In this document: piece by piece, positions 1 through 3,105 of the stretch
How the letters are laid out: every line of letters begins with the position of its first letter
How positions within the stretch are numbered: the first letter of the stretch is position 1
Assembly: GCF_003325755.1 (NCBI RefSeq)
Contig: NZ_QORI02000020.1
Coordinates: forward strand, 13,704-77,703
Length of the DNA: 64,000 bases
Source: Pseudomonas sp. SST3
GTDB lineage: Bacteria; Pseudomonadota; Gammaproteobacteria; Pseudomonadales; Pseudomonadaceae
Direction of reading: 5' to 3'
The notes under the pieces: model-generated
Seen by the model: the letters and a program-made list of their open reading frames with translations, nothing else
Told to the model about the DNA's origin: nothing
Databases searched by the model: none
Translations under genes and position numbers: made by a program

Positions 1-551
1 ACGAGTGGCTGAGGCAAATCAGTCCGTTCACGGTTGCAGCTCCAGATGGTGAATACAGGCAGTGGAAACCACTGCCAGCGCACTGCCGCGCAAGGCCGCA
101 GGCGCATTCCAGCCAGCCCGCCAGGTGCCTGCGAGGCAAGCGCATTCAGTGTGAGACGCGGTTGTTCGGCGGCACAGAACACTTCGATCCAGAGACGGTC
201 GAGCCGAGCCACATCGGCGAGATAGGGCAACTCGCGCGCCGGCTCGAAGGTGTGCAGGAAGTCAGCGAAATCGACGCCATATTCGATCAGTTGCGCCAGT
301 ACCGGGGGCGATCTACGGACATAGTGTGCGGCGGTCGCGGCGAACCACTGGGGGCCCACCAGTCGCTCGACAGTGGGAAAGTTGGCTCGCAGCGCGTCCA
401 CACAGCCTTTCATTACCGTATTGCGGTACACCGCGAAGCCTGGCTGCTTGGTCAACGCGCGCATCCATTCCGCGTCTTCGGAGCCCTCGGGCTCGACACC
501 CTGCAAGGCCTCGACGAACGCGTCTTGAAATCTTCCAAGCGATACGCTCAT
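1..551 (-). CDS. bufC: BufC/HvfC-like DUF2063 protein, truncated by the window edge
   Basis: This is a partial gene whose start codon is at 551 and which runs off the left edge (183 codons visible, no stop). The N-terminus MSVSLGRFQDAFVEALQG and the segment PGFAVYRNTVMKGCVDALRANFP are typical of the N-terminal DUF2063 domain, annotated as a putative DNA-binding domain but known as the partner (BufC/HvfC) of MNIO enzymes. It probably presents the precursor peptide to the BufB enzyme. Its ATG overlaps the bufB stop codon by four bases (ATGA), so the two are translationally coupled. Family assignment is from recognisable sequence; the partner role is inferred from what is known of bufferin systems. 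Confidence 0.85.
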   Translation of the reverse strand, partial: MSVSLGRFQDAFVEALQGVEPEGSEDAEWMRALTKQPGFAVYRNTVMKGCVDALRANFPTVERLVGPQWFAATAAHYVRRSPPVLAQLIEYGVDFADFLHTFEPARELPYLADVARLDRLWIEVFCAAEQPRLTLNALASQAPGGLAGMRLRPCAAVRWQWFPLPVFTIWSCNRERTDLPQPL

Positions 552-1390
552 CCCACCCTCCTCTGCCGATCGAGCAACCGCTGTGCACAGTCGCGCTCGT
601 CCAGCAACTCTGCGAACGACGGCAACTGGTCGTCACGTTCGATCAAGGTGGGCCTCGCACCAATTCGCTCGATCAGACGCTGGTACAACGCCCATACCGC
701 AGCGGTGATGGGTGCATCGTGGGAATCGATCAACAGACCGGAATCTCCCTGCCAATCCTGGCTGTGCCCGGCCAGGTGCACCTCGATGACGGCCTGAGCG
801 GGGAACTGATCGACATAAGTAAGCGCGTCGAAATCGAGGTTATGTGCACTGACGAATACGTTGTTGATGTCCAACAGCAAGCCGCAGCCACTGCGCCGGA
901 CCAGCTCGGTAAGAAAGTCGATTTCGTCCCACTCGTGCCCCTCGATACGCAGGTAATGGCTGGGGTTCTCCACAGCGATCTGCCGCCCGAGCAGGTCTTG
1001 GGTGCGCTGAACGTTGTCGACGATCCGCGTCAGCGCGGCATCGGTGCGTGGAAATGGCAACAGATCGGGATGGTACTGCCCTCGCCAGGCGGACCAAGCG
1101 AGGTGTTCTGAAATCAAGGCTGGCCGAACCCGCTCAGCCAGCGTTTTGAGTCGCTGCAGATGTGCCTTGTCCGGTGGGCAGTCGGCTGCCAGCGACAGCG
1201 ACACGCCGTGCAGCGAAAGCGAATGGCGTTCTCCGACTGCCTCCAGCCAGGCAAGACGGGCGCCGCCGTCAGCCATGTAGTTCTCCGGGTGCACCTCGAA
1301 CCAGACTCCGCAGGCGCCACATTCCTGTGCCGCCTCGTAGTACTCAGGCTTAAGGCTGAGACCAGCCCCCAGGTGAGCTGACATGACCAT
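548..1390 (-). CDS. bufB: MNIO-family (DUF692) peptide-modifying oxidase BufB
   Basis: This 280-residue protein is a full-length DUF692 / MNIO (multinuclear non-heme iron oxidase) enzyme with a TIM-barrel fold. Expected metal-ligand segments are present: HPENYM near residue 34, SLHGVSLSL near 58, SEHLAW near 94, VENPSHY, LLDINNVFVS, EVHLAGH and DSHDAP. In bufferin systems the enzyme converts cysteines of the small precursor into heterocycles that bind copper. It lies 15 bases after bufA1 and overlaps bufC by four bases, so the three form one operon. A second in-frame ATG two codons later (1384) is an equally possible start. Family is certain; copper bufferin as substrate is inferred from the neighbour. 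Confidence 0.92.
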   Translation of the reverse strand: MVMSAHLGAGLSLKPEYYEAAQECGACGVWFEVHPENYMADGGARLAWLEAVGERHSLSLHGVSLSLAADCPPDKAHLQRLKTLAERVRPALISEHLAWSAWRGQYHPDLLPFPRTDAALTRIVDNVQRTQDLLGRQIAVENPSHYLRIEGHEWDEIDFLTELVRRSGCGLLLDINNVFVSAHNLDFDALTYVDQFPAQAVIEVHLAGHSQDWQGDSGLLIDSHDAPITAAVWALYQRLIERIGARPTLIERDDQLPSFAELLDERDCAQRLLDRQRRVG

Positions 1391-1678: not shown

Positions 1679-1744
1679 ATTGGTAGTTCTCCATGCGATT
1701 CGCGACATGCGGCCAACAGTTGTTGATGGCCACTCAATCGTTAG

Positions 1745-1770
1745 TTCGCGCGGCGACCGCTCGCGGTTAC
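1745..1770 (-). promoter_or_regulatory. SigF-type ECF promoter of the buf operon
   Basis: On the minus strand TGTAACC is followed, 16 bases after its last C, by CGAA. GTAACC is at 1770-1765 and CGAA at 1748-1745. This matches the -35/-10 pattern that I recall for Caulobacter SigF, which controls homologous DUF2282 operons. The same motif with the same spacing stands in front of the sigma factor gene at 1885-1910. It lies about 67 bases upstream of the bufA1 start. Confidence 0.8.
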
Positions 1771-1884
1771 AGTGATGGAGATTTTCTTTGAGATATTTTT
1801 CGCCCGCTCTACCGTAGCGACGTGCGGCGGCCTGGCGGCTGGTAACACGCAATTGAATTGTCGCGGCGAAAACTCCTTCCCTCT

Positions 1885-1910
1885 GTAACCAGAGCGCTCG
1901 ATGCAACGAA
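1885..1910 (+). promoter_or_regulatory. SigF-type ECF promoter motif at the sigma factor gene
   Basis: GTAACC at 1885-1890 (preceded by T) and CGAA at 1907-1910 are separated by exactly 16 bases, identical to the motif in front of bufA1. Ten fixed bases repeated at both ends of one divergent intergenic region is very unlikely by chance. This suggests autoregulation. The motif overlaps the apparent ATG of the sigma factor gene at 1901, which is odd. Confidence 0.7.
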
Positions 1911-2467
1911 CTACCAGTCATAAAGCGTTAAAAGAGCGCGAGGCCCGCCTGCAAGCACTTCTGCTGCAGGGACTAGAGGGCAACGAGGCGGCTTACCGGC
2001 AATTCCTCATGCTGCTCGGGGCGCATCTGCGCAGCTTTCTGCGGCGCCGGTTGCAAACAGCAGACGTCGAAGACCTGCTGCAGGAAACGTTGCTGGCGGT
2101 GCACAACGCGCGTCACACCTATCGCTCCGACCAACCGCTCACCGTCTGGGTACAGGCCATCGCGCGCTACAAGCTGATGGATTATTTCCGCGCCCATGCA
2201 CGGCGCGATGCGCTCAACAATCCGCTAGACGACGAAGCGATGCTGCTCGCCGGTGAAGACCACCTGGCCGACCAGGCACAGCGCGATCTGACCCTGCTGC
2301 TGGAGCAATTACCGGACAAGCAGCGTTTGCCGATACTTTACGTCAAGGTGCAGGGGCTCTCAGTGAGCGAGGCAGCCGCACTCACGGGGCTCTCCGTCTC
2401 CGCCGTGAAAGTTGGCGTGCATCGCGGCCTGAAGGCGCTGGCCGCCCTGATTAGAGGTGCCCGATGA
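1901..2467 (+). CDS. sigF: ECF sigma factor, SigF-like
   Basis: This 188-residue sigma-70 family protein has a region-2 domain (about 25-100, core [14 protein letters not shown] at 55-68 and [13 protein letters not shown]) and a region-4 helix-turn-helix (about 130-182, [20 protein letters not shown]). It lacks regions 1 and 3, as ECF factors do. It overlaps the anti-sigma gene by four bases. Its likely targets are its own operon and the divergent buf operon, which share a promoter motif. Related SigF factors respond to metal stress. The start at 1901 is the only ATG/GTG/TTG that retains region 2, yet it lies inside the promoter motif, so the true start or promoter use is uncertain. Confidence 0.9.
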
Positions 2468-3105
2468 AAACCGATGACCTGATTTCAATGCTCGCCAGCA
2501 ACGTCCCCCCCACGGGAAACCGAATCGTCGCCTGGCGCTTCAGCCTTGCGGTCGTGATTGGCCTGCTGCTCGCACTGCTGGGGCTGCTGACGTTCTTCGG
2601 CGTGCGTCCGGACCTCGCCGAAGTGGCGACCACGCCGTTGTTCTGGGGCAAGGTCGCGCTGCCGGCCACCCTGCTTGGCGGCTCCCTGATGATGAGCACG
2701 CGCCTGGCTCGGCCCGGCGTGCGCGCCGGCGCCAGCTGGGCGGCAATCAGCTTGCCGGTGGGTGCCGTATGGCTGGCGGCAGCGGGACTGCTGCTCAGCG
2801 CATCCGCCGAGCGCCGCTGGGTACTGGTGTTTGGCGAGACCTGGCAGGTCTGCCCGCTCAACATTGCCGTGCTTTCGGTACCTGCGTTCGTCACGGTGTT
2901 TTGGGCCATGCGCGGACTGGCACCCACCCGGCTGCGTCTGGCAGGGGCCGCGGGCGGCCTGCTGGCCGGCTCGATGGCGACACTCGCTTACAGCCTGCAC
3001 TGCCCGGAGATGAGCGTTGCCTTCTGGGCGGTCTGGTATGTGCTGGGCATGGCGGTCCCCACCGCACTCGGCGCCTCGCTGGGGCCGCGTCTGCTGCGCT
3101 GGTAA
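2464..3105 (+). CDS. nrsF: NrsF-like anti-sigma factor (DUF1109)
   Basis: This is a 213-residue inner-membrane protein with about six hydrophobic segments (roughly 24-46, 60-78, 90-112, 130-148, 158-178 and 186-206) and the DUF1109 signature. Cysteines at 130 (WQVCPLNI) and 180 (LHCPEMS) sit almost exactly where Caulobacter NrsF has its two metal-sensing cysteines. In the family the protein holds SigF at the membrane until metal stress releases it. It starts four bases before the sigma factor gene ends, so the two are co-translated. Sensing function is inferred from the conserved cysteines. Confidence 0.9.
   Translation: MKTDDLISMLASNVPPTGNRIVAWRFSLAVVIGLLLALLGLLTFFGVRPDLAEVATTPLFWGKVALPATLLGGSLMMSTRLARPGVRAGASWAAISLPVGAVWLAAAGLLLSASAERRWVLVFGETWQVCPLNIAVLSVPAFVTVFWAMRGLAPTRLRLAGAAGGLLAGSMATLAYSLHCPEMSVAFWAVWYVLGMAVPTALGASLGPRLLRW

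Follow-up and report, generated by a model that had tools for sequence, protein, structure and literature searches.

The window, a stretch of 64,000 nucleotides from Pseudomonas sp. SST3, carries a bufferin operon and, divergent from it, a sigF-nrsF operon, with a set of promoter elements in and around the intergenic region that they share (Table 1). The gene identities given in the preliminary description of this DNA were borne out by profile matches above cut-off. The bufA product contains four cysteines (Cys33, Cys44, Cys52, and Cys73) and a signal peptide seen by eye only, and it fell below the cut-off of the BufA2 equivalog (30.1 against 60). In the sigF product, the Pfam domains Sigma70_r2 and Sigma70_r4_2 both scored above cut-off. 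NrsF carries Cys130 and Cys180, to be compared with cysteines 129 and 179 of OsrA, and published work describes six membrane helices for this family. The NrsF score against equivalog NF042994, which is passed by the Caulobacter protein, was below cut-off (129.9 against 300).

Table 1. Genes and promoter elements at the bufferin/sigF-nrsF locus (positions in the window)
Feature	Position	Strand	Details
bufC-like gene, DUF2063 partner protein	3..551	-	Continues past the window edge; PF09836, 74.7 (cut-off 27.2)
bufB, MNIO maturase	548..1390	-	NF050167, 354.3 bits (cut-off 310)
bufA, DUF2282 bufferin precursor, 90 aa	1406..1678	-	PF10048, 90.3 bits (cut-off 22.4)
SigF-type promoter, buf operon	1742..1771	-	-35 TGTAACC 1771-1765, N16, -10 CGAACTA 1748-1742
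Conserved sigma70-like promoter	1788..1815	+	TTGAGA-N16-TACCGT; reads towards sigF
SigF-type promoter, sigF side	1884..1913	+	-35 TGTAACC 1884-1890, N16, -10 CGAACTA 1907-1913
sigF ATG	1901..1903	+	Inside the spacer of the sigF-side promoter, three bases ahead of CGAA and upstream of the -10
sigF, ECF sigma factor, 188 aa	1901..2467	+	NF009188, 286.2 bits (cut-off 250)
nrsF, anti-sigma family PF06532 (DUF1109)	2464..3105	+	231.4 bits (cut-off 26.8)

The DUF2282 precursor, MNIO maturase, and DUF2063 partner are together the components of a bufferin cluster, and bufferin clusters accompanied by sigma factor and NrsF genes have already been catalogued (PMC12452194). On the other side, the features of a SigF system are found as well, namely, a SigF-like ECF sigma factor, a cognate NrsF gene downstream, and TGTAACC-N16-CGAA at both sigF and a target operon. 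The promoter does not lie upstream of the sigma factor start codon, since the ATG is placed between the -35 and the -10. This arrangement lowers the claim of positive autoregulation, not that of family membership. We take SigF of the window to belong to group ECF16, following published papers. The locus is best read as an ECF16 (SigF-NrsF) stress switch for the bufferin operon in a Stutzerimonas-type pseudomonad.

Two copies of GTAACC-N16-CGAA were found in the 64-kb window against 0.05 expected, at 1770-1745 on the minus strand and 1885-1910 on the plus strand, exactly where the preliminary description had placed them, each with the leading T (at 1771 and 1884, respectively). They face outward from the shared intergenic region, and two copies were reached in only 1 of 100 dinucleotide shuffles of the window. 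The pair of boxes is not due to chance. The two promoters had been called identical, which is true of their fixed letters and not of their spacers. They match the SigF promoter of Caulobacter (PMC3511200), as the preliminary description had stated, and tGTAACc-N16-CGAA has been cited as the motif proposed for ECF group 16 (PMC3420878). In relatives the motif is longer than first stated and reads TGTAACC-N16-CGAAYTA, with the T two bases past CGAA present in all 57 sigF boxes and all 53 buf boxes and the A after that T in 52 of 57 and 44 of 53, respectively.

In the nearest genome (G001), the bare form GTAACC-N16-CGAA occurred 10 times versus 15 times for the reversed control, and the eight copies outside this locus carried neither the leading T nor the YTA tail. 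TGTAACC-N16-CGAA occurred twice in G001, both times at this locus, versus once for the reversed control. Random scatter of the motif had been named beforehand as an outcome that would refute the proposed circuit; the bare form is indeed scattered in this way, while TGTAACC-N16-CGAA is not. The leading T and the tail thus matter, because the bare form shows no genome-wide enrichment. A survey of the genus covered 56 genomes, 24 with SigF at an E value of 1e-30 or better and 32 without. The 24 SigF genomes contained 65 copies of TGTAACC-N16-CGAA (reversed control, 28), 47 at the locus, where G003 was counted once because its sigF box reads GGTAACC, and 18 elsewhere (0.75 per genome). Where SigF was absent (32 genomes), 27 copies were counted (0.84 per genome; reversed control, 26). 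Exact-box counts outside the locus in the 56 genomes gave no evident additional regulon members, and since the off-locus rate is no higher with SigF, these two promoters seem to make up the whole circuit in this genus, to the extent that exact boxes can show it. Two off-locus boxes recur (in G005, G006, G011, G019, G021, G055, and other genomes). They were rejected as regulon members, as they are also present in genomes without SigF (G019, G021, and G055), and they look like conserved unrelated sequence.

In total, 109 SigF loci including the window were collected, partly from the best 80 of 441 matches, and 98 of them differed from one another in the 600 nt surrounding the sigF start. The box lies at the same position as in the window in 57 of the 98, and elsewhere or nowhere in the other 41. 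All 57 loci, the window included, have a start codon at the same place in the spacer (56 ATG and 1 GTG), a count that includes close relatives, which are not independent, and that comes from loci selected on where the box lies with respect to a BLAST match beginning at residue 1, a criterion biased towards methionine. An exact buf box was absent from the 400 nt scanned at four of the 57 loci (L097, L103, L104, and L115). At the same position in the 53 buf spacers, ATG occurs once and any start codon four times, and most other spacer columns vary among the 57 loci. The upstream reading frame is closed at these loci by the TAA of the -35 itself, and two plasmid records annotate the same ATG as the start of sigF.

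After ATG 1901, the next in-frame ATG, GTG, or TTG in the window is codon 37, a methionine shared among the 57 translations only with L011; CTG at 1949 is a candidate for an unusual start codon. No start codon is present in codons 6 to 16 at 29 of the 57 loci, window included, or in codons 6 to 20 at 19 of them. At the remaining 28 loci, codon 9 or 10 is an in-frame start, in most cases TTG; in L171, codon 10 is a GTG preceded by AAGGTGG. Pairwise differences among ten close relatives in codons 6 to 12 numbered 58, 56, and 140 at the first, second, and third codon positions, and residues E14 and L17 are invariant in all 57 translations while being written with two and five codons, respectively. 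Judged by these substitution patterns, codons 6 to 17 look translated, and translation would start before E14 and L17, because the third-position bias and the invariant residues written with several codons both fall within this segment. A start at the mostly conserved Leu10 was considered and rejected for the window, where this codon is TTA, and for the loci in which it is CTC. A strong Shine-Dalgarno sequence in the spacer was also considered as the main proof of the spacer start and was found to be weak; a canonical 4-mer is present in 12 of 57 sigF spacers versus 1 of 53 buf spacers and is absent from the window. The MxRTT N terminus of these SigF proteins is largely dictated by the promoter. 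The ECF16 family is known, and the start-in-spacer layout is new; a literature search, which was not exhaustive, found no description of a sigma factor start codon inside the spacer of its own promoter.

The RNA start of an ECF16 promoter in Bradyrhizobium japonicum was mapped 6 bp after the -10 (PMC3420878), and the printed promoters of Sinorhizobium meliloti, on our reading of their lower-case entries and footnote, place the start 10 nt after CGAA (PMC6180224). With the offset of published ECF16 promoters, the start on the sigF side is predicted at approximately 1916-1920, inside sigF codons 6 to 7, and that of the buf operon at approximately 1739-1735 on the minus strand. At or just past the predicted buf start, at 1735-1733 (minus strand), columns G, A, and G are each conserved in 45 of 53 loci, which appears to be beyond what the promoter core would explain. 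SigF-made RNA from the window could not encode full-length SigF, because it would begin 15 to 19 nt past the ATG. The same RNA could encode NrsF. The Shine-Dalgarno sequence of nrsF is strong. Its energy is approximately -5.5 kcal/mol or lower in 49 of the 56 loci that were scored and -7.1 in the window, and in one more locus no nrsF start was found. The sigF stop and the nrsF start share an ATGA in the window and in 36 of 57 loci in total. No mapped transcript from any species with the start-in-spacer layout was found. The circuit proposed in the preliminary description had two arms, and they fared differently. SigF control of the buf operon is well supported. The step in which SigF then activates its own operon is not supported in the form given, since the ATG lies between the -35 and the -10 and the predicted RNA would be without the sigF start codon.

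A further candidate promoter, of the sigma70-like type, lies between the two boxes, and the sigF-side box follows its -10 at a distance of approximately 69 nt. The pattern TTGAGR-N15..18-TANNNT, which was chosen after the sequences had been seen, was present on the sigF strand in 38 of 53 loci, or in 24 of 38 representatives less than 85% alike, and missing in the other 14 representatives. It was found on the opposite strand in none of the 38 representatives, and shuffled sequences gave a mean of 0.04 and at most 1. Promoter scores of this element at single loci are modest, and its conservation constitutes the evidence. The sigma70-like promoter is a candidate source of sigF mRNA and probably supplies it at a basal level.

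Other arrangements of box and start codon were found in further SigF loci. Among 40 additional loci (L150 to L189), 16 had an exact box before sigF, eight with the start codon in the spacer as in the window and eight with a start candidate after the box. Six of the latter eight come from other classes (L158, L160, L163, L166, L167, and L173) and have the start candidate 11 to 19 nt after CGAA, which is the ordinary order; L160 and L166 are ambiguous because an in-frame start codon is also present in the spacer. The box lies approximately 155 to 360 nt upstream of the conserved part in a large group made up mainly of Burkholderiaceae. In total, 138 loci were scored, a number that includes repeats of one genome (e.g., L011 and L174), and the start was inside the promoter in 65, downstream in 53, and without an exact box in 20. 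A tree was built from 133 different sequences, with a bootstrap that is not settled. Four changes are needed on it to account for the inside state, two of which are forced by well-supported branches, and all 61 rows with the inside state fall into one clade of 100 rows from Pseudomonas and Burkholderiales. In Pseudomonas morbosilactucae (L079, 3001 region), the spacer codon is ATC and a new ATG is located 8 nt after CGAA. By eye, an 18-bp tandem duplication appears to have separated the start codon from the promoter and restored the ordinary order, and the retained MERTT start looks like a promoter fossil.

The core idea of a SigF-controlled bufferin operon is known biology in a further species, because the motif, the divergent DUF692 operon, and metal control have been published for Caulobacter or Sinorhizobium. 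In Caulobacter crescentus, as in the window, GTAACC-N16-CGAA precedes both sigF and DUF2282-DUF692-DUF2063 operons, and the promoter was mapped for both; NrsF is a negative regulator in which two conserved cysteines were studied, and sigF promoter activity is partly SigF independent (PMC3511200). Copper raises sigF and nrsF together in this species (PMC8224329). The Caulobacter-like locus L160, used as a stand-in for C. crescentus, has a GTG preceded by a purine-rich stretch, 11 nt past CGAA; its spacer also holds an in-frame TTG and GTG, whereas the only early start of the window is the one in the spacer. S. meliloti also resembles the window, as its rpoE7-ecfR7 genes are divergent from a DUF692/DUF2063 operon with matching mapped TGTAAC/CGAA promoters, and it differs from our reading of the window in that RpoE7 appears to activate its own promoter, as inferred there from ecfR7 expression (PMC6180224). 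The sequence that comes after the -10 there, GGGAGGAA, looks like a normal leader. The same divergent operons are present in Cupriavidus metallidurans as gigPABT and rpoQ-rsqA, which are induced by copper and gold, rpoQ-rsqA being reported as RpoD dependent (PMC10304878). C. metallidurans, which has another layout, overexpresses rpoQ under copper, and strain CH34 was rejected as a precedent for the start-in-spacer layout, as its in-frame rpoQ starts lie downstream of the box.

From the arrangement of these elements, the reading that we favour, with somewhat better than even confidence, is that SigF would turn on bufferin and, at home, mainly its own inhibitor, which amounts to negative feedback. 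Basal sigF-nrsF mRNA, complete with the start codon of sigF, would come from the housekeeping promoter between the boxes. Stress, presumably a metal signal, would inactivate NrsF, and freed SigF would fire the two back-to-back promoters. The left one would make the bufA-bufB-bufC RNA, while RNA from the right one would begin within sigF, beyond the only start codon that can be used, and so give NrsF and no new SigF; the right promoter may also obstruct housekeeping transcription, which has to read through it. Both effects would shut the response off, and the sigF-side box would then be a shut-off promoter rather than a self-amplifying one. Counting against this reading are the joint rise of sigF and nrsF under copper in Caulobacter, the rpoQ overexpression of C. 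metallidurans, the weak Shine-Dalgarno sequence in the spacer, the 14 representatives that lack the sigma70-like pattern, and the later start codons at 28 of the 57 loci. SigH-RshA of Corynebacterium glutamicum is a different sigma/anti-sigma pair. Like the present proposal, it combines housekeeping promoters for the sigma factor operon with a SigH-dependent promoter for the anti-sigma gene only, for which a role in shutdown was proposed (PMC3489674). The rshA promoter is a separate one, whereas the promoter in the window straddles the start codon of the sigma factor gene. There is about an even chance that, across Pseudomonas and in part of the Burkholderiales, a single DNA segment acts at the same time as sigma factor promoter, as translation start, and as codons 1 to 5; this would fix the promoter as an anti-sigma-only one and, by geometry alone, turn the usually positive ECF loop negative.

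Ordinary positive autoregulation, the chief rival, with SigF starting downstream of the SigF-dependent RNA start (at codon 9 or 10 or at an unusual codon) and the spacer ATG mis-annotated, has a precedent in EcfF-OsrA of B. japonicum, where, as in the window, a mapped SigF-type start overlaps the annotated ATG and EcfF was reannotated to a distal start codon (PMC3420878). The start candidates after CGAA in the six relatives of other classes and the later start codons at 28 of the 57 loci are also consistent with it. However, the window has no standard start to adopt before codon 37, the lack of a start in codons 6 to 16 extends to more than half of the 57 loci, and codon 10, a leucine in 49 of the 57, is written TTA, TTG, CTG, or CTC. 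Together with the invariance of E14 and L17 and with the spacer start codon, whose conservation it would leave unexplained, this makes such autoregulation unlikely, and a slightly shorter SigF with ordinary positive feedback is possible at the 28 loci with a later start. These later starts could also give two SigF isoforms, a full-length form from the housekeeping promoter and an N-terminally shortened form from the SigF promoter, in a mirror image of SigR/SigR' of Streptomyces (PMC4921905). In the window, the first standard start past the RNA start is the poorly conserved codon 37, use of which would drop E14, L17, L20, G24, and G27, all invariant in the 57 translations, and we hold the isoforms to be very improbable.

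The position of the sigF-side box, downstream of the sigma70-like -10 and across the sigF start, also fits a mechanism in which SigF polymerase occupies the ribosome site region and blocks sigma70-like transcription, giving autorepression with little RNA made. The sigF-side box has kept the letters of the buf promoter, the T of the YTA tail among them, which suggests that it fires, and repression mainly by occupancy thus seems a rather poor prospect. Motifs arising by chance and having no function would agree with the absence of enrichment of the bare form in the genome, but diverged loci of Pseudomonas and Burkholderiales have both boxes at matching places even though the DNA in between has changed, which leaves this explanation with next to no probability. 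An ECF sigma factor is often assumed to amplify itself whenever its motif is found at its own gene. At this locus the motif is indeed present and conserved, but where it sits with respect to the start codon speaks for feedback of the opposite sign. If the favoured negative-feedback reading is true, any inference of positive autoregulation from a motif scan calls for a look at where the start codon lies, and these pseudomonads should show a bufferin response in the form of a self-limiting pulse. Coding and promoter constraints share the same bases at the 5' end of sigF.

The switch is also found on conjugative plasmids of Stenotrophomonas rhizophila and a Pseudomonas sp. (L152, 2513-3582, and L159, 2013-3082), which carry bufA, sigF, nrsF, and both boxes. 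The sigF-side box reads TGTAACT on these plasmids, and a chemotaxis receptor gene adjoins bufA in the place of bufB, leaving an orphan precursor with its switch.
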